This document shows, piece by piece, positions 31,934 to 64,000 of a stretch of DNA of 64,000 nt. The DNA is from Agathobaculum butyriciproducens (lineage in GTDB: Bacteria; Bacillota; Clostridia; Oscillospirales; Butyricicoccaceae). The stretch is taken from positions 62,001-126,000 of the forward strand of contig QEKJ01000002.1 in NCBI GenBank assembly GCA_003096535.1. Reading direction: 5' to 3'. The position numbers and the translations under genes were made by a program. Each line of letters begins with the position of its first letter. Position 1 is the stretch's first letter. The notes beneath the pieces were generated by a model. The model worked only from the letters and a program-made list of their open reading frames with translations. It did no database searches and was not told where the DNA came from.

Positions 31934-32804
31934 GGAACAGCAGGCAATCACTCGTCTGCGGCTGGCTGCGGAAATGAGTGAAACCTATTACCACGCATCG
32001 TTGGTCATTACCACATCGGGCGGCAAGGACAGCGATGTGTGTCTTGCGCTGGCACGGGCGGCCGGTATCCGGTACGAAGTACAGCATAATCATACCTCGG
32101 TAGATGCTCCCGAAACGGTTTACCATGTGCGCGAAACTTTTCATCGGCTGGAAAACGAGGGTATCAAGTGTACCGTCAACCTGCCAACGTACAAGGGTGC
32201 TCGCGTGACAATGTGGAATTTGATACCGCAAAAACTCATGCCGCCGACGCGCGTTGTACGATACTGCTGTTCGGTTCTCAAAGAGCAGGGCGGCAAAGGT
32301 CGCATGATAACAACAGGTGTCCGTTGGGCCGAAAGCGCCAAACGCCGCAAGAACCGCGGTATTTACGAAAAACAATCCGCAGACATAAGCCGCAGAATCA
32401 CGATCAGCAATGATAACGACGATACCCGGAGGCTGTTCGAGAACTGCCGATTGCAGGCAAAGCGCGTCTGTAATCCAATCGTAGACTGGACGGACAGAGA
32501 AGTGTGGGACTACATTCGTTCCGAGCATATCCCGGTCAATCCGTTGTATGAGCGCGGCTTTCATCGTGTCGGCTGTATTGGCTGTCCGCTGGCAGGCCGT
32601 GCCGGGCGGCAGTTTGAGTTTGGTCGGTATCCGACCTACGAGCGGGCGTATCTGCACGCATTTGAACGGATGCTTGCGGAACGCCGCTGCAGAAACCTGC
32701 CTGCTGTCTGGCAGAGCGGGGAAGAAGTGCTGCACTGGTGGCTGCAGGATGGTGTGCTGCCGGGGCAGTTGAGCATTTCAGATTACTTAACAGAAATGGA
32801 GTGA
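31926..32804 (+). CDS. Phosphoadenosine phosphosulfate reductase family protein
   Basis: 292 residues from ATG 31926. PP-loop SGGKDS near residue 36 binds ATP/PAPS. Cysteine pairs (RYCCSVLK, and VGCIGCPLAGRAGR) could hold a metal or Fe-S cluster, as in DndC-like and phage-borne relatives. These accessory versions do not assimilate sulfate; roles in DNA or tRNA sulfur modification have been shown only for some. No dnd genes are near. Its role in the ICE is not known. Confidence 0.75.
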   Translation: MNKEQQAITRLRLAAEMSETYYHASLVITTSGGKDSDVCLALARAAGIRYEVQHNHTSVDAPETVYHVRETFHRLENEGIKCTVNLPTYKGARVTMWNLIPQKLMPPTRVVRYCCSVLKEQGGKGRMITTGVRWAESAKRRKNRGIYEKQSADISRRITISNDNDDTRRLFENCRLQAKRVCNPIVDWTDREVWDYIRSEHIPVNPLYERGFHRVGCIGCPLAGRAGRQFEFGRYPTYERAYLHAFERMLAERRCRNLPAVWQSGEEVLHWWLQDGVLPGQLSISDYLTEME

Positions 32805-32816
32805 AGGAGTGAAACA

Positions 32817-35800: not shown

Positions 35801-37631
35801 CAATACGCCGGACAAGAGCGGTACGGATAACGGTGTGGATATTGAAGATGGTACGGCAGACGGTCATGCGGGCAATAAGACCGCAAACAAGACCACCGCA
35901 GCAGTTGGTGATACGATCACTTACTCCATTCGCCTGGAAAACGGTGCAGCAGCTACCGCAGACTGGGAGAACATGAAAGTGATTGACGTTCTGCCTGACG
36001 GCGTAAGTTTTGCAGGAAACGTGCAGGAGAATGGTTCGGCAACGGTCAATTATTCGTACAATGCTACGATGAAAACAATTACGTTCACGCCGGATGCTAT
36101 CGCAGCAGGCGCACAGACCGTTCTTAGCTTCGATGTAACTGTTGATGATGGTTCGCAGGGCAAGTTCATTGTCAATACCGCTATCCTCGATGATAACGGC
36201 AAGGAAACGCCTATGCCGGACGGCGGCGTACAGATTGATGAGGGCGAAGCTGCTCCGATTGTCAACAAGTCCGCAAGCGTCACGACTGCCAATGCAGGTG
36301 ATACTTTTACCTACACCATTACCGCAAAGAACGGCAATAAGGCAACTGCCGCATGGAAGAATGTCGTACTGAATGATACGCTCCCGACTGGTGTTAAGCT
36401 GGTAGGCGGCGTGTATATCAACAACGAATTTGCGCTGTATCATTTGAGCGGCAATGCGCTGTCTGTGCTCGTAGGTGATCTCGAACCGGGCGAATCGGCT
36501 GAAATTACTTTTGACGTGCAGGTGCTTGAAAGTGCGGCTGGTACAACGATTACCAACACTGCTTCGCTTGATGGCGATAACGGTCACGGCACTGCAACGG
36601 ATAAGGGTGTAACGATTCCTGACACGGCAGAACAGCCGGACGTTAACGCAAATTTTTATGTAACCAAAGAGGTTGATAAAACTGTGGTGAATGTGGGTTC
36701 TGGCGTTTCGGCAGACCGCAAACGTGCCACTTTTACCATCACGGTTGGCAACGATTCTAACCAGACGTGGAAACGGGTTATTCTCAAAGACACGCTGGAT
36801 ACCACGCTGGTAACGCCGGTTTTGAAAAATAACGTCTATGTGGACGGTGTTCTGAACAACAAGTGGAGTTTCCGGAGCAAAGTATTTACTCTGGAACTCG
36901 GTGACATTGCGCCGAACGAAAAGCGCGTGGTGAAAATCACGGTTGAGTTTAAGACCGATGCGGGCGGCAAGACGTACACCAACCTTGCCGCGGCTACGGG
37001 TGACAATGGTTCGGCTTCGGGCCGTTCGCCGGAGATTGAAGTCGTTTCGTCTGGTTCGTCCGGTACACCGGTGCTGACGGATATTCACTATCAGCTGTTC
37101 GGTGGTTACGCGGACGGTCTGTGGCGGCCGAATGATCGCGTATCCCTGCAGGAAGCCTGCACGGTTGTATATCGCCTGATTGCAAACGGCGGCAATACTT
37201 GGTTGCCGCGCGGCACGATTACCGTTCCGAAATACAAGTACGATATTCCGGAAGAAGCAAAGTATTTCGTTTCCATCGGCGTTCTGCCTGCGTCCGCGTT
37301 TGATACCACTCGCATGGACGAGGGTGACGATTACGAGATTAACTATACGATCTCTAAGAACGGCTACCTGCGTATCTGGGCTGCGTCTGGTCAGCTGAAT
37401 TCACTGGTGGCCTATGCAACGAAAACGAACATCGGCCTCAGCGGTGATGTATCTCGTCTGACGTTTGCAAAGGCAATCTGCCAGATTACCGGCCGCGACA
37501 CCTCGCCGGATGTTTCCGGTTACAGCGGCAATCTCCGCACATGGGCGGACGCTCCCTCGTCTGTTGTAACCGAGGTTTCGCACGAACATGATTTCATTAT
37601 GGACAGCGACCGCAACGAATACTGGATTTGA
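32817..37631 (+). CDS. Large S-layer-type surface protein: SLH domains plus eight DUF11 repeats
   Basis: 1604 residues. Signal peptide (about 1-26). MucBP-like segments with GKEIAKK and GKEIAKS (about 40-90 and 300-345) flank three SLH units (about 93-265: GYPDKGVHPNGDLTRAEAA, LLEGKSKDSFAPNAPISRAE, GWIQGYPDGTFRPDKEITRT). Then eight DUF11-type repeats of about 130 residues (about 351-1417, each with a K-A/S-x(5-8)-VGD-x-ITYT start), and a C-terminal SLH-like end (GGYADGLWRPNDRVSL). SLH domains bind cell-wall polymers, so this is a long wall-attached stalk, probably an adhesin or a mating-contact protein. It is the largest ICE gene. AAGGAGTGAAACA precedes the ATG. Confidence 0.88.
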   Translation: MSIIKRIISAGLSLAMAATIIPNSFAVSTQSASTLSSVTAKYLDAENGKEIAKKQTYSVTHEEKSPQTITNYTYADYTESVEYVYSHKDLTYIIGYPDKGVHPNGDLTRAEAAMIFYRLYDGDYPSFTRRMSNSTFKDVNAKNWFYEPVETLYNIGLLEGKSKDSFAPNAPISRAEFAVLAARFQNLKYTSGKVFSDVEKGHWAYSYINAASEAGWIQGYPDGTFRPDKEITRTEIVTLVNSMINRTVTREKLKALKVRNPYNDLAESFWGYTNLMEATVSHTAEEWHDAKYNDGKYNIIVEKFVDMSGKEIAKSVTTAGKAETAPKSIPAYEYRGYIRTITYRYSTGDALPSIEKTASVKDAKVGDEITYTIKLSNDKKASSAWKSVVLTDKIPSGMTFIEGSVYVNNAAATHTVKNGTLTVGLGDIAAGKTVTVTFKAKINGDMYNQTIYNTAVAKGTNGYVTAADGKKTNIYEDKDDGVYVKKGDTAPYVTKTADKETANVGDKLTYTVKVGNGDGAVYEIENAKMADTIPAEFDFVDGSVQVDGKSYPYSYDNASRKLSVVIDNLKPNAARTVTFAVTVGKSAYGKTVHNIAVLSGDNIKDTEGKDKGVEIGDGKTKPEVTKTADKSAANVGDKVTYTIKLANGEFASVAIKDAVLTDTIPNGLDMQYGSVTLNGKLINGYSYDEASRVLTVKVGDLAIEKSATVTFVAVVNTAAYGKTIYNTAVMKSDNAPDTSGKDNGVTVGDGKAKPQIDKAANKSSARVGDKIAYTLTVKNDDTATVPVENGVITDVLPAGLTFEYGSVTLNGKNTNDYTYDENTRLLTVNVGTIEPDAKQIIGFTATVNESAYNTTIQNLATLTSDNADPVQDKDDGVAIADGDALLTVSKSADKTTAKVGDTITYTVNVANATGADVNIRDAVMTDTIPNGLTFRGNVTVDGYSAEYQYDNTGKTLTVSLGEIAPNQTKAIRFDVTVNSDAYGMHIENTALVSGSNTPDKSGTDNGVDIEDGTADGHAGNKTANKTTAAVGDTITYSIRLENGAAATADWENMKVIDVLPDGVSFAGNVQENGSATVNYSYNATMKTITFTPDAIAAGAQTVLSFDVTVDDGSQGKFIVNTAILDDNGKETPMPDGGVQIDEGEAAPIVNKSASVTTANAGDTFTYTITAKNGNKATAAWKNVVLNDTLPTGVKLVGGVYINNEFALYHLSGNALSVLVGDLEPGESAEITFDVQVLESAAGTTITNTASLDGDNGHGTATDKGVTIPDTAEQPDVNANFYVTKEVDKTVVNVGSGVSADRKRATFTITVGNDSNQTWKRVILKDTLDTTLVTPVLKNNVYVDGVLNNKWSFRSKVFTLELGDIAPNEKRVVKITVEFKTDAGGKTYTNLAAATGDNGSASGRSPEIEVVSSGSSGTPVLTDIHYQLFGGYADGLWRPNDRVSLQEACTVVYRLIANGGNTWLPRGTITVPKYKYDIPEEAKYFVSIGVLPASAFDTTRMDEGDDYEINYTISKNGYLRIWAASGQLNSLVAYATKTNIGLSGDVSRLTFAKAICQITGRDTSPDVSGYSGNLRTWADAPSSVVTEVSHEHDFIMDSDRNEYWI
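33868..37068 (+). repeat. Eight coding DUF11 repeats
   Basis: About 390-bp units starting near 33868, 34282, 34684, 35074, 35470, 35866, 36250 and 36640. They diverge at the DNA level but share short blocks such as GGCGATAAG and ACTTACACC. The repetition could let recombination vary the protein length. Confidence 0.75.
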
Positions 37632-37643
37632 GAGTAGAATGAG

Positions 37644-37678
37644 AAAACCCGCCTGTTTTGCAGCAGGCGGGTTTTACA
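37644..37678 (+). terminator. Terminator of the surface protein gene
   Basis: Twelve-base-pair stem AAAACCCGCCTG (37644-37655)/CAGGCGGGTTTT (37664-37675). Confidence 0.85.
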
Positions 37679-37725
37679 TTAGTAGAGAGTAACATAGGCT
37701 ATTCTGAAAGGAAAGGTGAAGCCGT

Positions 37726-37875
37726 ATGGCAAAACAGCAGATTAAAGCGGTTTGCACACACGTTTTTCAGAATGGAGGGGAAACCTGCGACCGGAAACGG
37801 TTTACAGAGAAATGGGTAGAAATGATTAACCGTATCGAACAGGCAGAGACGAAAATTACGGAGAAAAGGCAATGA
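37726..37875 (+). CDS. Small basic protein preceding the recombinase
   Basis: 49 residues from ATG 37726 with AAAGGAAAGGTGAA upstream; stop at 37873-37875. Composition is basic and helical in the second half (WVEMINRIEQAETKITEKRQ). Lying 69 bp before the serine recombinase gene, it is a candidate for a directionality (excision) factor, but nothing in the sequence proves this. Confidence 0.5.
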   Translation: MAKQQIKAVCTHVFQNGGETCDRKRFTEKWVEMINRIEQAETKITEKRQ

Positions 37876-37944
37876 CAAAAGTGCAGTTATGCGTTACAAT
37901 AAAAGTAGGAAACAGCTTGTTCTTATCTGAATGAGGTATAGAAC

Positions 37945-39501
37945 ATGAAGAAAGTAGCAATTTATTGCCGTTTATCCGAAGAAGATAAAAACAAGCTATG
38001 TGCAACCGATGATTCGGGCAGCATTCAGAATCAGAAAGCAATGCTGATGCAGTATGCAGAAGAACAGGGGTGGGAAGTTTATCAGATTTATAGTGATGAT
38101 GATTATACAGGTGCAGACAGGCGGCGGCCGCAGTTCAATCGGCTGCTGAAAGACGCAGAGCAACACAAGTTCGATATTATCCTCTGCAAAACACAGTCCC
38201 GCTTTACCCGCGAATTGGAGCTGGTAGAGAAGTATATCCACGGTCTGTTCCCGATTTGGGGTATTCGTTTTGTTAGCATTGTGGATAATGCGGATACGGA
38301 CAACAAAGGCAACAAAAAATCACGTCAGATCAACGGCCTTGTGAACGAATGGTATCTGGAAGATATGTCGGATAATATTCGCAGTGTACTGACGAACCGC
38401 CGTGTCAACGGTTTGCATATCGGCGCGTTTGCGCTGTATGGCTATCGCAAAGACCCTGACCGCAAAGGGCATTTGCTGATAGATGAAGAGGCTGCTGCAG
38501 TGGTTCGTGAGGTGTTCAACCTGTTTGCACAGGGATATGGGAAAACTTCGATCGCCCGTATTTTGAACGCCCGCGGGATTCCCAATCCCACCGAGTACAA
38601 ACGACAGCATGGCTTACGCTACAAGCAGGCGGTGAGCAAAAACAGCACCTTGTGGAAATACTTTGCGATTGCGGATATGCTGGAAAATGAAATTTACATC
38701 GGCAATATGGTGCAGGGCAAGTATGGCAGTGTGTCGTATAAAACCAAGCAGTGTAAGCCGCGTCCGAAAGATCAGTGGTATGTTGTGCGTGGTACGCACG
38801 AGCCGATTATTGACCAGGAACTGTGGGACAAGGTATGTCGGCGGCGAGCAGAGCGCAGCAGACCGTTCAGTGATGGAAAAATTGGTATTTTCGCACGCAA
38901 AGCACGGTGCGCATATTGCGGCTATACGCTTCGGTCCTCCAAGACGCAGGACCGGCACTATCTGCAATGTCCGAATCGGCATATCTCTGTGGAAGCCTGT
39001 CCCGGTGCGTTTATTGCGGTCAGCCATTTGGAGGAAGCTGTACTGGAAGAGCTGAACCGGATGGCGCAGGAATTTCTCGATAAGGATGAAGCGGCCGAGA
39101 GCGTAGCGTTCTGCAAGGATTTGCAGAAACAGAAGAAATGCCTGCAAAAGGAGATCAACACCTATCGTCAGAAGCAGGAGGAATATACAACAGGCATTCG
39201 CAATCTGTACCTCGACAAGGTAAAGGGACTGCTGACAGAGCAGGACTATCTTGCTATGTCGAAAGATTTTGCCGGAGAGCGTGATCGGCTGGAGCATGTG
39301 ATCGAGGATGGCGAAAAGCAGATGCGAGAACTTGAGGAGCGAATCGCTATCGGAGATAACCGCCGTGCACTGGTCGAGAAGTACATGAACATTGAGCACC
39401 TGAACCGTGAGATGGTCGATACGCTGATTGACTATGTGACTGTCGGTCGGCGCGCCAAGGGCACGAAAACGGTTCCTGTGGAGATTCATTGGAATTTTTA
39501 A
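37945..39501 (+). CDS. Large serine recombinase (ICE integrase)
   Basis: 518 residues. Resolvase domain with catalytic Ser11 in YCRLSEEDKN, and conserved TQSRFTREL and the DDYTGADRRRPQF loop. A recombinase domain follows (YGYRKDPDRKGHLLIDEEAAAVVREVF), then a zinc ribbon (CAYCGYTLRSS, and C in QCPNRH), then a coiled-coil (about 390-475). The family integrates elements at 2-bp cores without homology. The gene ends 120 bp from attR, consistent with acting on the cotJC sites. Tn916 uses a tyrosine integrase here instead, so the element is a mosaic. Confidence 0.93.
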   Translation: MKKVAIYCRLSEEDKNKLCATDDSGSIQNQKAMLMQYAEEQGWEVYQIYSDDDYTGADRRRPQFNRLLKDAEQHKFDIILCKTQSRFTRELELVEKYIHGLFPIWGIRFVSIVDNADTDNKGNKKSRQINGLVNEWYLEDMSDNIRSVLTNRRVNGLHIGAFALYGYRKDPDRKGHLLIDEEAAAVVREVFNLFAQGYGKTSIARILNARGIPNPTEYKRQHGLRYKQAVSKNSTLWKYFAIADMLENEIYIGNMVQGKYGSVSYKTKQCKPRPKDQWYVVRGTHEPIIDQELWDKVCRRRAERSRPFSDGKIGIFARKARCAYCGYTLRSSKTQDRHYLQCPNRHISVEACPGAFIAVSHLEEAVLEELNRMAQEFLDKDEAAESVAFCKDLQKQKKCLQKEINTYRQKQEEYTTGIRNLYLDKVKGLLTEQDYLAMSKDFAGERDRLEHVIEDGEKQMRELEERIAIGDNRRALVEKYMNIEHLNREMVDTLIDYVTVGRRAKGTKTVPVEIHWNF

Positions 39502-39590
39502 TCGATTATCATAAATTGACATGTATTTATCATATTACGTATGATAACACACAAAAAAGAACAGTATGTACGCTAAAATGATGCGTAAAG

Positions 39591-39623
39591 GCTAAAAGAT
39601 TGTTCTTACAAAGGTGTAGCTTC
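39591..39623. other. attR of the 29.6-kb ICE
   Basis: Core TC at 39622-39623. The inner arm CTAAAAG-A-TTGTTCTTA (39592-39608) is the inverted counterpart of the arm at attL, again 13 bp from the core. Confidence 0.85.
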
Positions 39624-40028
39624 CGCTGCCATATCCTCAAACAGATCGGTGATCGGGTCGCCTTTGGACTGGAACGTTGCGGCGCTCCACGGCACACCGG
39701 AGGCCGACTGCGGGTAAATGCCGGTCGTGTGATCGACAAAGTAGGCGTCAAAGCCGCCCTCCTTGATCTGCTCGGGCGTGAGATTGCGCGTCAGCTGGTA
39801 CACGATAGCGGAGATCATCTCCATGTGCGCAAGTTCTTCCGTGCCGATGTCCGTCAAAATGCCCTTGCATTCCTTATACGGCATGGCGTACCGCTGGTTG
39901 AGATAGCGCATGGACGCACCCAGCTCGCCGTCCGGGCCGCCAAGCTGAGAGATAACAATTTTGGCGGTCTGCGGATTCGGATTCTTGATCTTCACCGGAA
40001 ATTGCAATCGTTTATCGTATGACCACAT
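39621..40028 (-). pseudogene. cotJC: 5' part of cotJC (manganese catalase-like spore coat protein), split by the ICE
   Basis: Codons 1-136. It keeps the ferritin-like metal-binding helices (GTEELAHMEMISAIVYQL) and ends DLFEDMAAE at the junction; the frame then reads four foreign codons and stops at 39606. CotJC is a manganese catalase relative of the inner spore coat, made in the mother cell together with CotJA and CotJB. Start ATG overlaps the cotJB stop by one base. Joined with 9855-10061 it gives a whole gene. Confidence 0.92.
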
Positions 40029-54249: not shown

Positions 54250-54363
54250 GTGAAGGGCTTACCGGAGGAGCGCACGATCCGTCTGGCGCAGTACATGATC
54301 GAGCAGAAGGCCACCGTGCGGCAGACTGCGGCACGGTTCGGAATATCCAAGTCAACCGTACAT
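54250..54363 (+). pseudogene. spoIIID: 5' part of spoIIID (sporulation transcriptional regulator), interrupted
   Basis: GTG 54250 with AGGCAGGAGG upstream. Codons 1-38 encode EERTIRLAQYMIEQKATVRQ ... ARFGISKSTVH, the N-terminal helix-turn-helix of SpoIIID (B. subtilis: ERTIKIGKYIVETKKTVR ... EFGVSKSTVH). After His38 the expected KDLTERL is replaced by IEVMKMSGSFG and a stop at 54397-54399. So the gene is cut within the recognition region, and the rest is not in the window. SpoIIID controls mother-cell genes including sigK. Confidence 0.8.
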
Positions 54364-54534
54364 ATAGAAGTAATGAAAATGAGCGGTTCATTTGGTTAAT
54401 TTGATAACGAAACCCGGAGTGCAGACATGAGGAAATGTTCGTACTCCGGGTTTACTTATGTGGGGGATTCATCGCTGAATTTGGGCTAACAGGGATTTTT
54501 AGGGATAAATATTATGGGCTTTGCATACAAGCTG
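54361..54534. other. Left end of a second integrated element
   Basis: Sequence changes from spoIIID to AT-richer DNA at about 54363-54366. The first 170 bp have no gene, but a hairpin AAACCCGGAGT (54410-54420)/ACTCCGGGTTT (54443-54453). Other end and recombinase are outside the window. Confidence 0.65.
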
Positions 54535-54689
54535 GCGCCGTCCGTGCGGCGGCGTGCAGCGCGTAAGCCGACGGCACAAGATGGTGCCGAGGGCGCGGCG
54601 ATAGCCGCGCCCTAAATATATGGCCCCCTTTTATCTAACAGGGGGGTGCAAATCGGAATAGATCAGCAAATTTCGCAAAACTTTGAACA
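54535..54689 (+). other. Tn916-type oriT copy on the second element
   Basis: Aligned with 14380-14533 over its whole length. Identical blocks include CGCCGTCCGTGCGGCGGCGT, CTAACAGGGGGGT and CGCAAAACTTTGAACA; the C-run/G-run hairpin (54624-54628/54641-54646) and CAAATCGG are kept. No relaxase gene follows; the next gene is a Fic protein 190 bp away. Confidence 0.75.
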
Positions 54690-54833
54690 TAATGGGTGGC
54701 AAAACTTGCATTTCACATGATTTTAAGGCGAAAATACGGGAGTTTTTGCAAAAGCGATGTATAAACAGAATGTATTCGTGATATATGTTAGCGTTCTTCT
54801 AATTTATGTACTAAAAATATGATGCAAATAGCG

Positions 54834-54862
54834 TTGACATTGATAATACTTGGACATATACT
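54834..54862 (+). promoter_or_regulatory. Promoter of the fic-hsd operon
   Basis: TTGACA (54834-54839), 17 bp, TATACT (54857-54862). Confidence 0.8.
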
Positions 54863-54878
54863 ATAATTATATCATTGT

Positions 54879-55976
54879 ATGAAAAATGATAATATTAAAG
54901 GCTGGATGGAAAATTGCATGAGAGATTTCATCTTTAAGACAGAATATAAAAAACTACTTACACCAGAGGTTGTGTCCTGTCTTACACAGATTCATGAGTA
55001 TAAGGGCCAGCAGAGCTTTCTTGTCAAGGTAAAAGCAGATGCACTATCAAATCTCTTGGAGAGTGCAAAAATCCAGAGTATAGAAGCATCCAACTGTATC
55101 GAAGGCATTATCACAACAGATAATCGTCTGAAAAAAATCGTAAGGGACAAGACCATCCCCAAAACTCGAAATGAGAAAGAAATCGCGGGATATCGTGATG
55201 TACTTGCAGTGATTCATGAGAGTTATGACTATATTCCGCCAAAGCCATCGGCTATTCTGCAGCTTCATCGTGATTTGTATAAATTCTGCGGAAAGACCGT
55301 TGGCGGTAGCTATAAAAGCTCAGACAACATCATTACGGCGGAACAAGAAAACAGAGGACGAGCAGTGCGTTTCCAACCTGTTTCCACATTAGAAACGCCG
55401 CAATCCATGATTGCGTTATGCGATGCGTTTCAGAACGCAAGGCAGGATGCCGAACTGGATCCACTGTTGCTTATTCCTATGTTTATTTTAGACTTCCTGT
55501 GCATTCACCCGTTCAACGATGGCAATGAACGCATGAGCAGGCTGTTGATATTATTGCTTCTGTATCGTTCCGGCTATATCGTGGGAAAGTATATCAGTAT
55601 TGAAAAGCTGATTTCCGATACTAAAGAAACTTATTATGATGCTGTGCAAGCCAGCTCTTATAACTGGCATGAGGGTACTAACGATTATGTACCCTTTGTT
55701 ATCTATATGCTGCGTATTTTTGTAACAGCCTATCGTGATTTTGAAGACAAAATCGAACTGCTGACTACCAAGAGGCTTTCAAAGCCTGACCGGGTACGGG
55801 AAACTATAAAAAAACATCTCGGTAAGATTACAAAGAGCGAAATCATGGCTAATTGCCCAGACATCAGCCAGATCACTGTTCAGCGAGCACTGGCAGATCT
55901 GATGAGATCGGGTGAGATTATCAAACTCAGCGGAGGTCGTTATACCTCTTACATCTGGAATAGGGAGAGAAAATAG
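54879..55976 (+). CDS. Fic family protein with N-terminal inhibitory motif
   Basis: 365 residues from ATG 54879; ATG 54906 or 54918 may be the true start, since the promoter leaves only about 10 nt of leader. Fic motif HPFNDGNERMSR with catalytic H210; the usual GN-G-R is GN-E-R. An inhibitory helix motif SNCIEG (S-x3-E-G) lies near residue 72, so it is a self-inhibited class II Fic. A C-terminal winged helix follows. Fic proteins AMPylate targets. It leads the type I restriction operon, 2 bp before hsdM. Confidence 0.85.
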   Translation: MKNDNIKGWMENCMRDFIFKTEYKKLLTPEVVSCLTQIHEYKGQQSFLVKVKADALSNLLESAKIQSIEASNCIEGIITTDNRLKKIVRDKTIPKTRNEKEIAGYRDVLAVIHESYDYIPPKPSAILQLHRDLYKFCGKTVGGSYKSSDNIITAEQENRGRAVRFQPVSTLETPQSMIALCDAFQNARQDAELDPLLLIPMFILDFLCIHPFNDGNERMSRLLILLLLYRSGYIVGKYISIEKLISDTKETYYDAVQASSYNWHEGTNDYVPFVIYMLRIFVTAYRDFEDKIELLTTKRLSKPDRVRETIKKHLGKITKSEIMANCPDISQITVQRALADLMRSGEIIKLSGGRYTSYIWNRERK

Positions 55977-55978
55977 AA

Positions 55979-57487
55979 ATGATTACAGGCGAACTGAAAA
56001 ACAAAATCGACAGCTTATGGGACATTTTTGCGGCTGGCGGATTGGTCAATCCGCTCGATGTCATTGAACAGATTACTTATCTGATGTTCATTCATGATTT
56101 GGACGATTCTGATAATCTCAGAGCGAAAGAAGCGGCTATGCTGGGGTTGCCGTATCAGAGTATTTTTGCAGATGAGATACAAGTAGGTGAGCGTACCATT
56201 GATGGTCAGCAGCTCAAATGGTCTGTGTTCCATGACTTCCCGGCTGGCAAGATGTACTCTGCTATGCAGGAATGGGTATTCCCATTCATCAAGACACTTC
56301 ATACGGATAAAAACAGTGCTTATTCCAAGTATATGGACGATGCCATTTTTAAGCTGCCCACGCCGCTGCTGCTGTCCAAAGTCGTGGATTCATTGGATGA
56401 GATTTACCGCTTAATGAACGAATCGCAGGCAGTGGATGTACGCGGCGATACATATGAGTATCTGCTCAGCAAGATCAGCCAGTCCGGCCGGAACGGTCAG
56501 TTCCGTACCCCGCGTCATATCATTCGCATGATGGTGGAACTGATGGATCCGAAAGCTGATGATGTGATCTGCGACCCGGCTTGCGGCACCTCCGGTTTCC
56601 TTGTTTCTGCGGGTGAATATCTGAAAGAACATCGCAAGGAAGAAATCTTCTTCGACCGACAGAAGAAAGACCACTACATGAACCATATGTTCTTCGGCTA
56701 CGATATGGATCGCACCATGTTGCGTATCGGTGCCATGAACATGATGACTCACGGTATTGACAATCCTTTTATCGAATACCGGGACAGCCTCAGTGATCAG
56801 AATCCGGACAAGGAGAAGTATTCGCTCATCCTTGCCAATCCGCCGTTCAAGGGCAGTCTGGATGCAGATACCGTTTCGGCGGACTTGCTGAAGGTCTGCA
56901 AAACCAAGAAAACCGAGCTGCTGTTTCTGGCACTCTTTCTGCGTATGCTGCGCATCGGTGGGCGCTGTGCCTGCATCGTACCGGACGGCGTATTGTTCGG
57001 CTCGTCCACGGCGCACAAAGCCATCCGAAAGGAACTGGTAGAGGGTAATCGGTTGGAAGCGGTCATCTCCATGCCGTCCGGCGTGTTCAAGCCATATGCC
57101 GGTGTTTCTACTGCAATCTTGGTCTTCACGAAGACCGGACACGGCGGCACGGATAACGTATGGTTCTATGATATGCAGGCTGACGGCTTTTCTCTCGATG
57201 ATAAGCGCAGTCCGGTGCAGGATAACGATATTCCCGACATCATCGCGCGTTTCCGTAATATAGAGGGCGAAAAAGACCGTCAGCGCACGGAAAAATCCTT
57301 CTTCGTGCCCAAGACGGAAATCGCAGAAAACGGCTATGATCTGTCCATCAACAAATACAAAAAGACGGAGTATATCCCCGTGGAGTATCCGCCTACCAGT
57401 GAGATTATGGCCCAGCTGCGGAAGCTGGAGAAGCAGATTGGCACTGCGATGGATGAGCTGGATAAGATGCTGCAAGGAGAAAAATAA
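55979..57487 (+). CDS. hsdM: Type I restriction-modification system methyltransferase subunit (HsdM)
   Basis: 502 residues. N-terminal helical HsdM domain, then SAM motif I DPACGTSGFLVS (about 199) and catalytic motif IV NPPF (287-290), an N6-adenine methylase. Together with HsdS it methylates, and with HsdR it cuts, unmodified DNA. One-base overlap with the next gene (TAATG). Confidence 0.93.
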   Translation: MITGELKNKIDSLWDIFAAGGLVNPLDVIEQITYLMFIHDLDDSDNLRAKEAAMLGLPYQSIFADEIQVGERTIDGQQLKWSVFHDFPAGKMYSAMQEWVFPFIKTLHTDKNSAYSKYMDDAIFKLPTPLLLSKVVDSLDEIYRLMNESQAVDVRGDTYEYLLSKISQSGRNGQFRTPRHIIRMMVELMDPKADDVICDPACGTSGFLVSAGEYLKEHRKEEIFFDRQKKDHYMNHMFFGYDMDRTMLRIGAMNMMTHGIDNPFIEYRDSLSDQNPDKEKYSLILANPPFKGSLDADTVSADLLKVCKTKKTELLFLALFLRMLRIGGRCACIVPDGVLFGSSTAHKAIRKELVEGNRLEAVISMPSGVFKPYAGVSTAILVFTKTGHGGTDNVWFYDMQADGFSLDDKRSPVQDNDIPDIIARFRNIEGEKDRQRTEKSFFVPKTEIAENGYDLSINKYKKTEYIPVEYPPTSEIMAQLRKLEKQIGTAMDELDKMLQGEK

Positions 57488-58365
57488 TGACAGAAAATGA
57501 TAAGCTGCAAATGTTTGAAAACCAACCGATTCGTACAGCATGGGATGAGGAACAGGAAGAATGGTACTTTTCTGTGGTGGATGTAGTTGCTGTACTTACC
57601 GATCAACCTGATAGCAGACACGCTGCGAAATATTGGAGTGTGCTTAAGACACGTCTGAAAAACGAGGGAAGTGAACTGACTACAAATTGTAGTCAGTTGA
57701 AAATGAAGGCCGCCGATGGCAAGCGCCGTCTGACCGATGTTGCAACCACTGAGCAGCTTTTACGCATCATTCAGTCGATTCCTTCAAAGAAAGCCGAGCC
57801 ATTCAAAATGTGGCTGGCTATGGTCGGTCGGGAACGCATTGAGGAAATCATAGACCCAGAACTGACGATTGAGCGGGCGCTGGATACCTATGCAAAGAAG
57901 GGCTACTCTCCCGAGTGGATTAACCAACGTATGCAGACCATTCGTGCCCGTAAAGAATTGACTGATGCTTGGGATGCCCACGGTGTCAAAAAAGGAAAAG
58001 AATACGGGATTTTGACCGATGAGGTTACAAAAGCGTGGTCTGGTATGACGACTCGGCAGTATAAGAATCACAAGGGACTGAAAAAGGAAAATCTGCGGGA
58101 TAACATGAGTACATTGGAGTTGGCGCTGAATATGTTAGCAGAGGCAACCACAACAGAGCTGACCAATGCACAGAATCCGCGTGGACTGGAAGAAAATCGT
58201 GCTGTTGCAAAGCAGGGCGGTAAAGTTGCAGGAAATGCCCGGAAAGAAATTGAATCGCAGACAGGGCGGCCGGTGATTACTTCTGACAACGCGCAGACAA
58301 TGCTGCTTGGAAACGCCGTAGTCGAAATGATCGAGAGTGTGGCCAAAGAGGACGAAAAGAAATGA
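57487..58365 (+). CDS. BRO-N domain protein (phage antirepressor-like) inside the hsd operon
   Basis: 292 residues. The N-terminal part (EEWYFSVVDVVAVLTDQPDSRHAAKYW) is a BRO-N domain; the middle and C-terminal parts are helical and basic (GRERIEEIIDPELTIERALDTY, AWSGMTTRQYKNHKGLKKENL). BRO-N proteins bind DNA and often act as prophage antirepressors. Between hsdM and hsdS it may regulate the operon or sense phage. Translationally coupled to hsdM. Confidence 0.75.
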   Translation: MTENDKLQMFENQPIRTAWDEEQEEWYFSVVDVVAVLTDQPDSRHAAKYWSVLKTRLKNEGSELTTNCSQLKMKAADGKRRLTDVATTEQLLRIIQSIPSKKAEPFKMWLAMVGRERIEEIIDPELTIERALDTYAKKGYSPEWINQRMQTIRARKELTDAWDAHGVKKGKEYGILTDEVTKAWSGMTTRQYKNHKGLKKENLRDNMSTLELALNMLAEATTTELTNAQNPRGLEENRAVAKQGGKVAGNARKEIESQTGRPVITSDNAQTMLLGNAVVEMIESVAKEDEKK

Positions 58366-58368
58366 CAA

Positions 58369-58388
58369 TTCGGATTTGTGGGGATGAA
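58369..58388 (+). repeat. Direct repeat, copy 1, before hsdS1
   Basis: TTCGGATTTGTGGGGATGAA, exact copy at 60634-60653. Each lies just before an hsdS start codon. Confidence 0.85.
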
Positions 58389-58390
58389 CG

Positions 58391-59593
58391 ATGGCAAAAT
58401 TGATTGAAATCACAGGGAAAGCCCTTTCGGGAGAATGGGGAACTGATGATGAAACGGGATGTGGAATTCCTGTACTCAGAACCACTAACTTCACAAACGA
58501 GGGCATTGTTAATTATCGTAATGTGGTTACGAGAACCATTACAAAGAAGAAAATTGCAGAAAAATATCTACGTCAAGGAGATATTATCATCGAAAAGTCA
58601 GGTGGTAGCGATAAGCAACCTGTAGGTCGAGTCATTTATTTCGATGGGCCAGATAGCACCTATTTATTCAATAATTTTACTGGTTTACTAAGAGTAAAAG
58701 ATAGAAATGTATGGTATCCACGATATGTGTTTTATTCCCTTTTTTTTAATTATCGAAGAGGTGGAACAAAAGCATTCGAAAATAAAACAACTGGTCTCCA
58801 CAATCTAAAAGTAGATGATTATGTGTCTCGATGTGAGGTGAGAGTAGAAAATATTCAAAAACAGGTTGCAATTTGCGAACAACTTGATCGAATTTTTGAT
58901 ATTATCAGAGCGCGTCAGCAGCAACTCCAAAAGCTGGATGAACTAATTAAAGCCCGATTTGTAGAACTCTTTGGGGATTTGGAAAGCAATCCTTTCGATT
59001 GGCCGGTGTGTGCCTTGAAGGAATTGGTTAGTATTGAACCACAAAATGGGTTGTATAAGCCTCAATCAGCTTATGTACAGGATGGATCAGGCTTCCCAAT
59101 CGTTAGGATAGATGCCTTCTACAACGGCAGAGTTACCGACTTTTCAGCACTAAAACGTTTGGAATGTTCTGAATCCGAAGTTCAAAGATATCTGCTTCAG
59201 GAGGACGATATTGTTATTAACCGTGTGAATAGCATTGAATATTTGGGGAAATGTGCACATATTAAAGGATTACTTGAAGAAACGGTTTTTGAATCCAACA
59301 TGATGCGACTTCATTTGGATGATACAGTTATGAATGCAGTTTTTGCCACGAAGTTATTGTGCTCCCAATATATGCACAAACAAATTATGATTCGAGCAAA
59401 GAAGGCAGTCAACCAGGCAAGCATTAATCAGCAGGATGTATTAAGCTTTCGTATGTTTGTTCCGCCACTTGAGCTCCAAGAGCAATTCGCGGCCTTCGTC
59501 GAACAAACCGACAAATCAAAATCTGTCGTACAGAAAGCCTTGGATGAGGCGCAGCTGCTTTTTGACAGCCTGATGCAGCAGTATTTCGGATAA
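58391..59593 (+). CDS. hsdS: Type I restriction specificity subunit HsdS (first)
   Basis: 400 residues: two target recognition domains (about 1-150 and 205-360) separated by a helical spacer with KLDELIKARFVELFGD (about 183-200), and a C-terminal helix (QLLFDSLMQQYFG). Each recognition domain reads one half of a bipartite DNA site. It starts directly after the direct repeat and ends with a 23-bp block (59499-59521) that is identical to one in hsdS2. Confidence 0.88.
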   Translation: MAKLIEITGKALSGEWGTDDETGCGIPVLRTTNFTNEGIVNYRNVVTRTITKKKIAEKYLRQGDIIIEKSGGSDKQPVGRVIYFDGPDSTYLFNNFTGLLRVKDRNVWYPRYVFYSLFFNYRRGGTKAFENKTTGLHNLKVDDYVSRCEVRVENIQKQVAICEQLDRIFDIIRARQQQLQKLDELIKARFVELFGDLESNPFDWPVCALKELVSIEPQNGLYKPQSAYVQDGSGFPIVRIDAFYNGRVTDFSALKRLECSESEVQRYLLQEDDIVINRVNSIEYLGKCAHIKGLLEETVFESNMMRLHLDDTVMNAVFATKLLCSQYMHKQIMIRAKKAVNQASINQQDVLSFRMFVPPLELQEQFAAFVEQTDKSKSVVQKALDEAQLLFDSLMQQYFG

Positions 59594-59628
59594 AATCAAT
59601 TAAACCAAGGGCAATGCGCCGGTGCAGG

Positions 59629-59660
59629 ATGATGGTACACGGATAAAGGAGTACCATCAT
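59629..59660 (+). promoter_or_regulatory. Inverted repeat overlapping the recombinase start codon
   Basis: ATGATGGTAC (59629-59638) and GTACCATCAT (59651-59660), spaced 12 bp. AAGGA lies in the loop and the ATG begins at 59659 in the right arm. It could sequester translation initiation or be a recombination site. Confidence 0.55.
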
Positions 59661-60627
59661 GGAAGAAAAGTTAGTGCATATTTTGAACGAAATGGCTGAA
59701 TATCTGAGCATTTCTCAGATGAAAAAACTGCAGGAGGTACTGCTCAAGAACCTTTCTGAAGCCGAAGCACACAAAACCGAGGTATCTAACACAGAATATC
59801 TGCAAATGTTCCTCGATGCCAAGAAAATCGAAGGCTGCTCGGAACGCACACTGCAATATTACCGTGTAACGGTGGAGCACCTGCTGTGCAGCATTTCCAC
59901 GCCGGTCCGCAAAATGAATACGGAGGAAATCCGCAGTTATCTTTCGGGTTATCAGCAGATCAACGGCTGTGGAAAGGTCACGGTAGATAATATCCGCCGA
60001 AATATTTCGAGCTTTTTCTCCTGGCTGGAGGAAGAAGACTACATTTTGAAAAGTCCCATGCGACGGATTCACAAAATCAAAACCAAACAGCAGGTCAAGG
60101 AGATTATTTCTGATGAAGCGATCGAGCAGCTGCGCGATCATTGTTCCTGTTCTCGAGATTTGGCTATGATTGATTTGCTGTATTCCACAGGTATTCGTGT
60201 GGGTGAACTGGTCAATCTGAATATTGCTGATGTGAATTTTGAAGCTCGAGAATGTGTGGTATTCGGCAAGGGCGACAAGGAGCGCAGAGTGTATTTCGAT
60301 GCCAAAGCCAAACTGCACTTGCAAAATTATTTGAATAGCCGTTCTGACGGTAATCCGGCACTGTTTGTCACCCTTGATGCTCCCCATGATCGGTTAAAGA
60401 TCAGTGGTGTGGAGGTGCGTTTGCGCACCTTGGGAAGATGTGTGAATCTGACGAAAATTCATCCACATAAGTTCCGCCGAACGATGGCAACACGCGCGAT
60501 TGATAAGGGTATGCCTATCGAACAGGTGCAGAAAATCCTTGGCCATTCGCAGATTGATACCACCATGAAATACGCCATGGTCAACCAGACTAATGTGAAA
60601 ACATCCCACCAGAAGTTTATCGCCTGA
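59659..60627 (+). CDS. Tyrosine recombinase (XerC/D-like) within the hsdS locus
   Basis: 322 residues. N-terminal SAM-like core-binding domain (about 45-130) and a catalytic domain with R180 (STGIRVGEL), K204/K207 (FGKGDKER), H270 and R273 (HPHKFRR), H296 (LGHSQIDTT) and the nucleophile Y305 (MKYAMVNQ): complete. Recombinases at hsdS loci (CreX/PsrA type) shuffle recognition domains. Here the two hsdS genes are in direct orientation, so deletion or exchange rather than inversion is expected. Confidence 0.9.
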   Translation: MEEKLVHILNEMAEYLSISQMKKLQEVLLKNLSEAEAHKTEVSNTEYLQMFLDAKKIEGCSERTLQYYRVTVEHLLCSISTPVRKMNTEEIRSYLSGYQQINGCGKVTVDNIRRNISSFFSWLEEEDYILKSPMRRIHKIKTKQQVKEIISDEAIEQLRDHCSCSRDLAMIDLLYSTGIRVGELVNLNIADVNFEARECVVFGKGDKERRVYFDAKAKLHLQNYLNSRSDGNPALFVTLDAPHDRLKISGVEVRLRTLGRCVNLTKIHPHKFRRTMATRAIDKGMPIEQVQKILGHSQIDTTMKYAMVNQTNVKTSHQKFIA

Positions 60628-60633
60628 TACAAC

Positions 60634-60653
60634 TTCGGATTTGTGGGGATGAA
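60634..60653 (+). repeat. Direct repeat, copy 2, before hsdS2
   Basis: Same 20 bp as 58369-58388. The distance between copies is 2265 bp and holds hsdS1 and the recombinase gene. Confidence 0.85.
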
Positions 60654-61762
60654 TGATGAAATACAGACTTGGAGAAATATGTGATGTTGTTTCTGGAGGG
60701 ACTCCTTCAAGGGCAACCGCAGAATTTTGGGACGGTGGCACTATCCCGTGGATAAAAATAGGAAATATACAGAGAAAGTACGTAGATGAAGCGGATGAGT
60801 ATATTACACAGGCGGGACTCGAGGGTTCGTCTGCAAAAATGCTTTCAGCTGGAACCATTCTATTTACTATTTTTGCAACGCTTGGCGAAGTAGGAATATT
60901 AACAATAGAAGCTTGCACAAATCAAGCTATTGCGGGAATTACTATTAAAAACCAGTCTGATATTTTAACAGACTATCTGTACTATTTCCTTAAATCTCAG
61001 AAGTCATGTATAGCTGCTTTGGGACGAGGAGTAGCGCAGAATAACATTAATCTTTCGATATTACGAAATTTCGAGGTGCCGATACCTGACTTGCCGATGC
61101 AAAAGCAAATAGTGGCTATACTTGATAAAACTGCGAAGGTTGTTGAAGTCCGTCAGCAGCAACTGCAGCAACTGGACGAACTGGTCAAAGCCCGATTTGT
61201 CGAATTGTTTGGTGATGGAAACCATCCGCACATAGCACTGATAGATCTTATAATTGAAGGTGCAGGGCTGTCCTACGGAATAGTGCAACCTGGCGACGAT
61301 GGCACGGGAGATATGGGAGTTCTACGCCCTGTCGATATGGTAGATGGTAAGATATCGACTGCATCGATTAAGTACATTGATCGTTCTATCGGTGACGGAT
61401 TCAAAAAAACCGAGCTATACGGAGATGAATTGCTTATTACCGTGAGAGGAACGACAGGAATAACTGCATTAACCGATATCCGCTTCAATGGGATGAATGT
61501 CACCCGTGGTATAGCAGTTGTCCGATATGATCGTAATAAAATCAATCCTGTGTATCTGAATGCCTATCTCAATACAGATGAGAGTCAGCGGTACATACAA
61601 GAGCATACAAGGGGTGCCACACTGCAGCAAATCAACCTATCTGATTTGCGGGTGCAGCAGATTATGGTTCCTCCATTGGCACTTCAAGAACAGATGGCGG
61701 CCTTCATCGAACAAACCGACAAATCAAAAGTTGTAGTACAAGATGAGGTCAATGGTCTTTAG
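60653..61762 (+). CDS. hsdS: Type I restriction specificity subunit HsdS (second)
   Basis: 369 residues; alignment with hsdS1 favours the second ATG at 60656. Two recognition domains differing from those of hsdS1 (start LGEICDVVSGGTPSR; second IDLIIEGAGLSYGIVQPGDDG), sharing the spacer QLDELVKARFVELFGD and the C-terminal block. It ends early: after DEVNGL the TAG at 61760 is followed in frame by LLYNRFLKEV, so the last helix is lost by a stop. May be a donor or an active alternative subunit. Confidence 0.85.
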   Translation: MMKYRLGEICDVVSGGTPSRATAEFWDGGTIPWIKIGNIQRKYVDEADEYITQAGLEGSSAKMLSAGTILFTIFATLGEVGILTIEACTNQAIAGITIKNQSDILTDYLYYFLKSQKSCIAALGRGVAQNNINLSILRNFEVPIPDLPMQKQIVAILDKTAKVVEVRQQQLQQLDELVKARFVELFGDGNHPHIALIDLIIEGAGLSYGIVQPGDDGTGDMGVLRPVDMVDGKISTASIKYIDRSIGDGFKKTELYGDELLITVRGTTGITALTDIRFNGMNVTRGIAVVRYDRNKINPVYLNAYLNTDESQRYIQEHTRGATLQQINLSDLRVQQIMVPPLALQEQMAAFIEQTDKSKVVVQDEVNGL

Positions 61763-61799
61763 CTGCTATACAATCGTTTTTTGAAAGAGGTGATTATTT

Positions 61800-64000
61800 A
61801 TGACCAATTTTGACATTTTTGATGCCATCCCACAATTTGAATCTTTCGCTTCAGTAGCTGTCTCGGCTGAGCGTATTTTACATATCGACGCCTCTGCCTG
61901 TGTGTTGAACTGCCGCAGGGCGATGGAGTTCGCCGTGAAGTGGATGTATTCCGTGGATAAAGCACTGGTCATGCCGTATCAAGATACGCTGGTAAGCCTT
62001 ATGAATACTGAGGATTTCCGTGATATTGTGGGTACGGATATCTGGCGGCGAATGGATTTTATTCGCCGTATGGGCAATAACGCCGCCCATACCGGAAAAA
62101 AGATCACCGAAGAGCAGGCGGCGCTGTGTCTGGAAAACCTCTATGTATTTCTGGATTTCGTAGCATATTGTTACGGTGAAAACTATACCGAGGGACATTT
62201 TGACCGTGATCTGTTGACACAGCCCCCCGAAATGCCTGCTGTTTCGATGCAAGGGACGACGGAGGTTGATTTGGCGGCACTCATGGCAGAGAATGCCGCA
62301 CTGAAAGAAGAGCTCACTGCTCGTCGTGCCGTGCAGCAGCAGACCTATGTGCCCAAGCCCCTTGATCTGTCGGAATATAAGACACGTAAGCTGTATATCG
62401 ACACTATGCTCACCGATGTGGGCTGGACTGAGGGTAAAGACTGGCGGGGCGAGGTGGAACTGCCCGGTATGCCCAATAAGAGTGAGGTGGGATATGCGGA
62501 CTATGTACTCTACGGCGATGATGGCCGTCCATTGGCGGTGGTGGAGGCTAAGCGCACTTGCGTAGATGTCGCTAAAGGACGACAGCAGGCAAAATTGTAT
62601 GCTGATCTGCTGGAAAAGGAGTACCACCGTCGTCCGGTCATCTTTCTGACGAACGGCTTTGAGACGCGCATTACTGATAACATCTATCCGGAACGCAGGT
62701 GCGCTGCAATTTATTCCAAGCGAGATTTGGAAAAGCTGTTTAATCTCCAGAGTATGCGAACAAGCCTGAAAAACATTATGGTGAACCGCAGCATTGCAGG
62801 GCGCTACTATCAGGAGGGTGCAATCAAAGCAACCTGTGATGCCTTTGCGCGCAATCGCCGCAAGGCTCTGCTGGTTATGGCTACCGGTTCCGGCAAGACG
62901 AGAACTGTTATCGCTCTGTGTGATGTATTGCTTCAGCACGGCTGGGTGAAGAATATCCTCTTTCTGGCCGACCGTAACAGTCTGGTGACACAAGCTAAAC
63001 GCAGCTTTGTGAATCTATTGCCCGATCTCTCTGTCACCAATCTCTGTGAGGAGAAGGACAACTATACCGCTCATTGTGTCTTTTCCACCTATCAGACCAT
63101 GTACAATGTCATTGACAGCGTGCAGGATGAGGCGGGCAAGCTCTTTACCTGCGGCCACTTTGATTTGGTGATCTGCGATGAGGCACACCGCTCGGTTTAT
63201 AACAAGTACCGGGATATTTTCAACTATTTTGATGCGCCGTTAGTGGGTCTGACCGCTACCCCTAAAGACGAAATCGACAAGAATACTTATGAAATTTTTG
63301 AGTTGGAAAACGGCGTCCCTACTTATGGCTATGAACTGGCGCAAGCGGTGAAGGACGGCTATTTGGTGGATTTCCTATCTGTGGAAACAAAGCTGAAATT
63401 CATTGAGCAGGGCATTGTTTACGACGAGCTTTCCGACGAGGACAAGGCGGCTTATGAAGACACCTTTGAAGACGAAAACGGAGAGTTACCAGAGCGTATT
63501 GCGGCCGCTGCACTGAATGAGTGGATTTTTAACGAAGATACCATTCGGCAAGTGTTGCATACGCTGATATCTAACGGCCTGACTATCGACTACGGCAATA
63601 AACTTGGTAAAACCATTATATTTGCAAAGAACCATACCCACGCGGAGAAAATTCTTGAGGTTTTTAATCGTGAGTATCCGTACTTACCCGGCTTTGCCAA
63701 GGTCATCGATAATTATATGACCTATGCTCAAAGTGCAATCGACGAGTTTTCTGACCCGAAGAAGCTGCCGCAAATCGCCATTTCTGTGGATATGCTGGAT
63801 ACTGGCATTGATGTGCCGGAAATATTGAATCTGGTATTCTTCAAAAAAGTCATGAGTAAGGCAAAGTTCTGGCAGATGATCGGCCGCGGCACGCGCCTAT
63901 GCCCCAGTTTGATTGACGGTAAAGATAAGGACAAGTTTTATATTTTTGATTTCTGCGGCAACTTTGAGTTCTTCCGCATGAATAAGGGAAAAGCAACCGC
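61800..64000 (+). CDS. hsdR: Type I restriction enzyme R subunit (HsdR), 3' end beyond window
   Basis: At least 733 residues from ATG 61800 (AAAGAGGTGATT upstream), frame still open at the window end. An N-terminal DUF4145-like helical part (about 1-125), a restriction nuclease domain with ADYVLYGDDGRPLAVVEAKR (Asp and ExK, around 240-258), helicase Walker A ATGSGKT (about 360) and DEAH (460), TATPKDE, and a helicase C domain (VDMLDTGIDVPEI, QMIGRGTR). It translocates and cuts DNA unmodified at HsdS sites. Confidence 0.92.
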   Translation, partial: MTNFDIFDAIPQFESFASVAVSAERILHIDASACVLNCRRAMEFAVKWMYSVDKALVMPYQDTLVSLMNTEDFRDIVGTDIWRRMDFIRRMGNNAAHTGKKITEEQAALCLENLYVFLDFVAYCYGENYTEGHFDRDLLTQPPEMPAVSMQGTTEVDLAALMAENAALKEELTARRAVQQQTYVPKPLDLSEYKTRKLYIDTMLTDVGWTEGKDWRGEVELPGMPNKSEVGYADYVLYGDDGRPLAVVEAKRTCVDVAKGRQQAKLYADLLEKEYHRRPVIFLTNGFETRITDNIYPERRCAAIYSKRDLEKLFNLQSMRTSLKNIMVNRSIAGRYYQEGAIKATCDAFARNRRKALLVMATGSGKTRTVIALCDVLLQHGWVKNILFLADRNSLVTQAKRSFVNLLPDLSVTNLCEEKDNYTAHCVFSTYQTMYNVIDSVQDEAGKLFTCGHFDLVICDEAHRSVYNKYRDIFNYFDAPLVGLTATPKDEIDKNTYEIFELENGVPTYGYELAQAVKDGYLVDFLSVETKLKFIEQGIVYDELSDEDKAAYEDTFEDENGELPERIAAAALNEWIFNEDTIRQVLHTLISNGLTIDYGNKLGKTIIFAKNHTHAEKILEVFNREYPYLPGFAKVIDNYMTYAQSAIDEFSDPKKLPQIAISVDMLDTGIDVPEILNLVFFKKVMSKAKFWQMIGRGTRLCPSLIDGKDKDKFYIFDFCGNFEFFRMNKGKAT

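Follow-up and report, generated by a model that had tools for sequence, protein, structure and literature searches.

What brings two interrupted sporulation genes together in a single stretch of chromosome? The window, by which we mean the whole 64,000-nucleotide stretch analysed here, corresponds to C2:62001-126000 of a genome assembled in 57 contigs and 99.7% complete. It carries the 5' half of spoIIID and both parts of cotJC, and in each of these mother-cell genes the coding sequence runs into foreign DNA. The original prediction left two readings, specialised intervening elements or a strain that is losing sporulation. Having followed both genes through the rest of the genome and through its relatives, we consider it probable that the two insertions are skin-type elements excised in the mother cell. 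In what follows G numbers denote genomes of our sample, L numbers denote loci, and C2 coordinates refer to contig 2.

Both genes rejoin in frame

The SpoIIID N-terminus is encoded from window position 54250 up to the residues STVH, where similarity to the family ends; the gene is interrupted at codon 39 by a 13.8-kb element. The C-terminal half lies at C2:130139 on the + strand, ~4.1 kb past the window end, and immediately follows the gene for a large serine recombinase (LSR), the stop codon of which overlaps the 10-bp core ACCGTACATA. This core occurs exactly twice in the 16.5 kb examined, once at each end of the element, and joining the flanks there by script restores the frame and yields a complete SpoIIID. 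A genome-wide profile search found no second full-length spoIIID: the C-half was the sole other match above the Pfam cut-off, and the four weaker matches that fell below it sit in different frames, 255 to 379 aa long. The two parts of cotJC, joined at a 2-bp core (GA), likewise give an uninterrupted CotJC, DMAAEQKARTTY. Like skin-type elements, each insertion thus lies within the coding sequence of a mother-cell gene whose parts are collinear, has short direct repeats at its ends and carries its own LSR near one end.

The view that spoIIID and cotJC are each split by an integrated element, put forward from the window sequence, therefore holds, as both genes rejoin in frame. The codons then proposed for the breaks, 38 and 136, are correct within one codon. 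The spoIIID 3' part, expected past 64 kb, is indeed present on the + strand and adjoins a recombinase gene; rather than a full second spoIIID with no 3' half beyond the element, only the two halves were found.

Table 1. The two split genes, their intervening elements and annotated cargo (window positions unless a contig or locus is given)
Feature	Position	Strand	Details
cotJC 3' part	9855..10061	-	codon 136 to stop
cotJC-intervening element	10062..39621	.	29.6 kb, Tn916-like ICE
cargo: C5 DNA methylase	10511..11578	+	Pfam PF00145
ICE: FtsK/SpoIIIE-type coupling protein	12322..13632	+	Pfam PF01580
ICE: Rep_trans-type relaxase	14274..15755	+	Pfam PF02486
ICE: ArdA antirestriction protein	16022..16510	+	Pfam PF07275
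ICE: VirB4-like ATPase (AAA_10)	17047..19509	+	Pfam PF12846
ICE: lysozyme-like protein	21651..22691	+	Pfam PF13702
ICE: TcpC	22710..23615	+	Pfam PF12642
49-aa ORF upstream of cotJC-element LSR, candidate RDF	37726..37875	+	CATA box 33 bp before start
LSR of cotJC (site C) element, 518 aa	37945..39501	+	Pfam PF00239/PF07508/PF13408; site-C clade
cotJC 5' part	39622..40028	-	codons 1-135 plus GA core
spoIIID 5' half	54250..54364	+	GTG start through 10-bp att core
attL core ACCGTACATA of spoIIID element	54355..54364	+	second copy C2:130142-130151, outside window
spoIIID-intervening element	54365..64000	.	left 9.6 kb of ~13.8 kb; continues to C2:130141
cargo: Fic family protein	54879..55976	+	Pfam PF02661
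cargo: type I restriction methylase HsdM	55979..57487	+	Pfam PF02384/PF12161
cargo: Bro-N domain protein	57487..58365	+	Pfam PF02498
cargo: type I specificity subunit HsdS, first copy	58391..59593	+	Pfam PF01420
cargo: tyrosine recombinase, between both hsdS genes	59659..60627	+	Pfam PF00589
cargo: type I specificity subunit HsdS, second copy	60653..61762	+	Pfam PF01420
cargo: 1097-aa ORF start (full length L007:7801-11094)	61800..64000	+	HsdR candidate by position only
candidate RDF of spoIIID element	L007:12352-12519		past window end
LSR of spoIIID element, 511 aa	L007:12618-14153		past window end

Our scans covered part of the ORFs in each element, and among the ORFs scanned we met restriction-modification and ICE genes and no prophage-like content. 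The cotJC element contains a conjugation module with coupling protein, relaxase, VirB4-like ATPase, lysozyme and TcpC, and it has an LSR where Tn916 has a tyrosine integrase, which presumably makes it an element of the Tn5397 kind. Judged by these genes, the cotJC element of this strain is a conjugative element and not a domesticated skin. It also holds a repetitive 1604-aa ORF (window 32817-37631) that is surface-protein-like in appearance. In the spoIIID element, the order hsdS, tyrosine recombinase, hsdS (window 58391-61762) suggests an invertible type I specificity locus.

The same codons of spoIIID are hit in other genomes

In the family of the window's genome, spoIIID was matched in 78/87 genomes and was present as two complementary halves in two: the window's genome itself and G051, of another genus. 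Across the order it was matched in 322/346, with at least two matches and a weak best score in 21. We took coordinates for 24 order genomes, comprising 20 of these 21 (the window's excluded) and four with a single partial match. Both halves were found in 20/24, nearly always with an end near model position 41 and a start near 34, the exception being G371 (pieces at 2-56 and 38-80). They share one contig in 15 of the 20, or 16 pairs with the window's genome; all 16 are collinear, rejoin at codons 38-40 with no internal stops, and have their halves 5 to 35 kb apart. An LSR abuts the 3' half in 14 of the 16. The LSR found in G051 and G383 instead follows the 5' half at a distance of 0.4-0.5 kb, and in G189 the 5' half is followed, 1 kb on, by an additional LSR.

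We also scanned public genomes with an alignment of the spoIIID-element LSRs and kept the best 80 of 499 relatives, which are 71-89% identical and come from Lachnospiraceae, Oscillospiraceae, a Christensenella and others. A first scoring placed the SpoIIID C-half immediately 3' of the LSR in 68 of these 80 loci (12 unscored); counting L165, L169, L179 and L186, the detached 3' half abuts the LSR in 72, with abutment not established in seven and one locus at a contig edge. Genome-wide searches behind 25 of the 80 loci recovered spoIIID only as partial pieces in 25/25; in 22 of these genomes the two halves were collinear and shared a contig. Chance can be ruled out, since the same codons are hit again in dozens of genomes.

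As a separate observation, silent positions of intact spoIIID (L014-L043) are unusually constrained at the att core, codons 37-38: Val is GTA in 24/30 genes compared with 40/170 Val codons elsewhere, and CAT is used in 28/30 compared with 23/41 elsewhere. Such constraint is absent in cotJC.

cotJC is cut at several sites, sometimes repeatedly

In the family, cotJC was matched in 78/87 genomes and is present as complementary pieces, read from the match list, in 29/87. The cuts fall at three sites, near model positions 32 (A), 64 (B) and 151 (C), which carry the conserved motifs GGPDGE, GTEELAH and AAEQKAR; we take these to be manganese-ligand motifs. In 14 of these genomes two or more pieces are found on the same contig, in every case collinear. 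Insertions can be stacked: a single contig of G023 carries four ordered pieces (three cuts), and G001, G004, G045 and G050 have three pieces each. An additional intact cotJC is present in 4/29 (G004, G033, G046 and G050). G003 and G004, of near-identical species, form a natural empty-site pair at 96-99%, with cotJC intact in G003 (L113) and bearing two insertions in G004 (L074-L076).

Order-wide, cotJC was matched in 307/346 genomes, and in ~100 genomes outside the family even the best match scored too low for a full-length gene; complementary pieces were seen in ~59 of the 64 weak-score genomes inspected. Pieces on the same contig are collinear in 29/32 order genomes. In the other three, G155, G188 and G315 (L312-L317), the fragments show no decay and have been stranded by rearrangement; their pieces not being collinear, simple excision could not mend them. 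We examined 55 junctions in 44 genomes. All 47 same-contig pairs were collinear, the order-level sets having been selected as such, and no joined gene has an internal stop. Automatic placement restored the conserved motif at 52 of the 55 junctions, and the other three, of which G050 holds two and G019 one, were misplaced by the script owing to alignments that extended into the element.

A fourth site is likely near codon 177, after HFQRFG(E/D), where three LSRs of one clade lie just after codon 175-178 (loci including L053, L077 and L103); no 3' tails for this site were found in the DNA examined. Two further observations concern the cotJC elements themselves. LSRs of the site A clade adjoin the 5' part of cotJC in some genomes and the 3' part in others (L086 versus L080, among others), as if the element could insert in both orientations. 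Some elements are only 2.4-3.9 kb long (L128 in G318, L106 in G216, L103 in G211 and L100 in G263) and consist of the LSR and a few ORFs that we named by eye, for example as ABC transporter-like or phosphorylase-like.

To place these figures, we followed two control genes. SpoIVA, another mother-cell protein, gave a single ATPase-domain hit in 69/87 family genomes and was split in 0/69; its frames are at least 493 aa long in 68 of them, and the remaining one begins 200 bases from a contig start. For the forespore gene GPR, two matches with a weak best score occurred in 4/301 genomes, three of these being assemblies of at least 110 contigs. With the controls rarely or never split, splitting is not general among sporulation genes.

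Recombinases sort by target site, not by host

We collected 77 LSRs near junctions, dropped four of unclear site and built a quick tree of the remaining 73, which came with long-branch warnings. The nearest relative of every LSR uses the same target site (73/73). Sites A (16 LSRs), C (13) and D (3) and spoIIID (16) form one clade each, and site B (25) forms two; the site labels need four changes on the tree, which is the minimum, compared with 40.6 in shuffles. The tree does not track hosts, and the spoIIID LSR of this strain clusters with LSRs of other families. Since the LSRs sort by site and not by host, the elements are both mobile and dedicated to their sites, and by this tree the spread of LSRs between families is horizontal. 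The departure from the host phylogeny also means that many of the insertions may be recent. As a general rule, the tree rejects vertical domestication of a single ancient element, though this holds for the pair G179/G373.

Split genes remain under purifying selection

Within the window's genus, pN/pS of cotJC is 0.109 among 13 split genes, 0.098 among seven intact ones and 0.100 between the groups; for the region after site C the values are 0.103 (split) and 0.102 (intact). No internal stops were found in the aligned parts of these genes, some of which are incomplete. In a neutral simulation, with insertion at a random point on the terminal branch and branch length set to half the nearest-neighbour distance, ~5 of 13 cotJC 3' parts would be expected to be stop-free, and the observed 13/13 has P = 9.5e-7.

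The one-contig genomes G179 and G373, of one genus, have cotJC elements that align, together with their flanks, at 92-94% except for one indel. As the whole element and its flanks are common to both, it was already present before they diverged. Since then the cotJC 3' part has accumulated 31 silent and four replacement changes, and the LSR 78 and 44. The spoIIID 3' halves show 18 silent and four replacement changes in G189/G255 and 10 and four in G166/G245; here the LSR and the spoIIID 3' half are 83% alike and most of the cargo differs. Against an expectation of 75% replacement changes, P is 3.7e-15 for cotJC of G179/G373, 3.6e-8 for G189/G255 and 3.4e-4 for G166/G245. Between 16 split and 30 intact spoIIID genes, the former taken order-wide and the latter from one family, the replacement share over all pairs is slightly higher for the split genes, a point against the reading preferred here: 0.51 versus 0.47 in the 3' half and 0.47 versus 0.44 in the 5' half.

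A small ORF before the LSR has a sigma-E-type promoter pattern

Upstream regions were examined for 71 spoIIID-type LSRs, of which 67 belong to the set of 80 public loci and four come from other loci; 60 of the 71 have at least 1 kb of upstream sequence. In 52 of the 71 loci an ORF of ~55 aa (KLNYRFHxPN...TADYxLKxxxEANxxKVExAI) lies upstream and, one stray match aside, on the strand of the LSR; the next commonest ORF family occurs in 10/71. Searches of Pfam (best E 0.04), NCBIfam and solved structures gave nothing over cut-off for this small ORF.

A start could be assigned for 44 of the small ORFs. The pattern [AC]TATT-N13-15-CATA, which we composed after inspecting these sequences and which we take to resemble the sigma-E consensus, is found upstream of 23, at 12 to 58 bp before the start (38-46 bp in 19 of the 23). 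Across 200 shuffles the mean was 0.29 and the highest count 2. With near copies removed the pattern is present in 20/37 regions, and the narrower ATATT form is present in 9/43, with 0.15 expected. GGACAA or GACAA, presumably a SpoIIID-like site, follows 3' of the -10 box in 12/44 of these promoters (0.33 expected); its position suggests a possible feedback once SpoIIID is made. The candidate gene of this strain has a good -10 box (CATAGAAAT) and a poor -35 box.

The regions directly upstream of the LSRs look different: the sigma-E pattern occurs in 3/60 (0.47 expected) and a sigma-A-like box pair in 13/60, compared with 0/44 for the latter upstream of the small ORFs. On these counts we rejected a sigma-E promoter driving the LSR. 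As positive controls we used genes supposed to depend on sigma-E. The pattern was found upstream of cotJA in 1/27 in both strict and loose form, upstream of intact spoIIID in 1/30 (strict) and 8/30 (loose), and upstream of split spoIIID in 2/16 and 6/16, respectively. Given how poorly cotJA and spoIIID match, the pattern lacks sensitivity as a detector.

At sites B and C, other small ORFs lie just before the LSR in 8/25 and 7/13 elements (15/38 in total), one site B candidate being only 17 aa long. The 49-aa ORF of the window's cotJC element is without a Pfam or NCBIfam match. Of the 15 candidates, 14 have CATA within the 85 bp preceding the start, compared with 0.26 per sequence in shuffles (P = 9e-8 over 15 sequences that are partly related). 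The three small-ORF families found upstream of LSRs are alike, by eye, only in size and place. We regard the small ORF as a candidate directionality factor (RDF), putatively driven by sigma-E.

Excision in the mother cell and competing explanations

Regulated excision in the mother cell is the simplest account of splits that are precise, mostly collinear, undecayed and recurrent, that come with dedicated LSRs and that, in the spoIIID class, are accompanied by a small gene with a mother-cell-type promoter. The LSR would insert mobile DNA at a conserved codon: in spoIIID this is codon 39, within the region that recognises DNA, and in cotJC the motif codons. With the target gene silent in growing cells, integration would be cheap and the element would be inherited through the germ line. 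At sporulation the small directionality factor, expressed from a sigma-E-type mother-cell promoter, would switch the LSR to excision, rejoining the gene exactly in the terminal cell, and the forespore chromosome would retain the element. We infer both that excision occurs and that it is confined to the mother cell.

A competing explanation is that these are ordinary mobile elements that use conserved codons of two dispensable genes under no developmental control. Lysogen-like carriage would then simply cost the cell the gene, or the gene would be mended only on departure of the element for transfer. In favour of this, LSRs have spread horizontally across families, the cotJC element of this strain is conjugative, and the cargo of the spoIIID element is restriction-modification. 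cotJC is moreover sometimes duplicated, and its loss may be tolerated, as a second intact copy is possible. Ordinary elements fit poorly, however, with purifying selection that is near equal in split and intact cotJC, with the lack of stops, with the G179/G373 element kept through a species split (31:4 silent to replacement changes in the 3' part), and with a sigma-E-type promoter on a conserved small ORF. Nor do they sit well with a genome in which spoIIID is present only as two halves, for the role of this gene is not dispensable in B. subtilis. We hold this explanation to be unlikely.

Loss of sporulation, the second option of the original prediction, would make the insertions symptoms of relaxed selection. 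The breakage of two mother-cell genes within a single genome, and the absence of spoIIID or GPR from some genomes of the order, could be read this way. However, SpoIVA and GPR are intact in the window's genome, GPR is present in 18/21 spoIIID-split genomes compared with 301/346 overall, and the split fragments show no decay; we reject this option as improbable. The other option, specialised intervening elements, is favoured by the same lack of decay and by the small gene with its mother-cell-type promoter.

More doubtful still is the proposal that the halves function without excision, for example through an element-driven fusion of the 3' part. The site A 3' part in G179 has an upstream open frame and might be expressed in this way, but the junction codons restore the motif only once joined, and a 3' part from site B, from site C or from spoIIID is missing the other half of the active site or HTH. 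Finally, assembly artefacts or chimaeric contigs, which several piece pairs on different contigs and the contig-edge pieces of G202 might bring to mind, are refuted by splits within one-contig genomes (spoIIID in G092; cotJC in G004, G179, G216 and G373) and by the recurrence of the same codon with the same LSR clade across families, and can be set aside with near certainty.

Were mother-cell excision confirmed, mobile elements would govern a regulator that acts early in the mother cell in roughly 1 of every 16 sampled order genomes (21/346) and a coat gene in about one third of the family genomes (29/87), and annotation of such genes as broken would be wrong. A broader proposal, to which we give about even weight, is that throughout the Clostridia spoIIID and cotJC are shared docking sites for unrelated elements whose excision is tied to the terminal lineage, so that the gene is mended just where losing the element has no heritable effect, with at least six site-dedicated LSR lineages and three small-ORF families that independently gained mother-cell promoter boxes. 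If that is true, the late mother-cell programme of ~6% of the sampled order genomes, and also that of many Lachnospiraceae, would depend on element excision. At least six families of LSR with their att sites, together with a testable RDF family, could be used as tools.

Relation to known elements

The elements described here belong with the skin type. Their novelty lies in which two genes they target, in the family of small genes, in how several elements can be stacked within a single gene, and in how widely they occur. We found no report of spoIIID or cotJC split by elements in the searchable literature, most subscription papers and preprints lying beyond its reach. Heterocyst elements, such as the fdxN element with XisF, are likewise removed from the DNA of a terminally differentiated cell, mending the gene, in a different phylum and a different differentiation pathway; the NCBIfam XisF model hits both LSRs of this strain far below its cut-off.

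Among solved structures, the spoIIID LSR has a relative in the SPbeta recombinase YokA, solved on its own and as a fusion with YotN; we take YokA and YotN to be SprA and its RDF SprB. SPbeta is a phage, whereas the spoIIID LSR has just one match above 50% identity among its best 80 in IMG/VR, and the script found no SpoIIID piece in any of these 80. SPbeta in spsM does share the arrangement of an active mobile element within a sporulation gene (PMC4191935).

A close parallel is skin of C. difficile, in sigK, where the LSR gene (CD1231; the RDF is CD1234) also lies immediately before the 3' half of the mother-cell gene. There, a sigma-A promoter drives the LSR, and expression of the RDF relies on a sigma-E promoter together with SpoIIID (PMC5025042), which closely resembles in its logic the division between sigma-A-type and sigma-E-type promoters seen here. 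Unlike skin, the present elements target spoIIID and cotJC rather than sigK, carry ICE, restriction or other cargo, are horizontally widespread, and have a small ORF that falls below every Pfam and NCBIfam cut-off.

Earlier split sporulation genes form a handful, sigK, spsM, spoVFB, gerE and yabG (PMC5595907, PMC10747680). The yin element in yabG of Clostridium botulinum is another LSR element in a sporulation gene, and its excision has been observed; it is reported as unique to one strain (PMC10747680), whereas the elements here are widespread. In C. difficile R20291, phi027 lies next to a cotJC-like catalase gene, although it is described as adjacent to the cotJC homologue and not as splitting it (PMC11222575). 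The gin element in gerE of Bacillus cereus (PMC5595907) is a non-phage element in the gene of a small mother-cell regulator and shows that phage content is unnecessary for such elements; it differs in gene, in bacterial class and in having three recombinases. The window's genome also has three tandem large serine recombinase genes elsewhere (G000:C15:20500-27000, L318), an arrangement that recalls gin.
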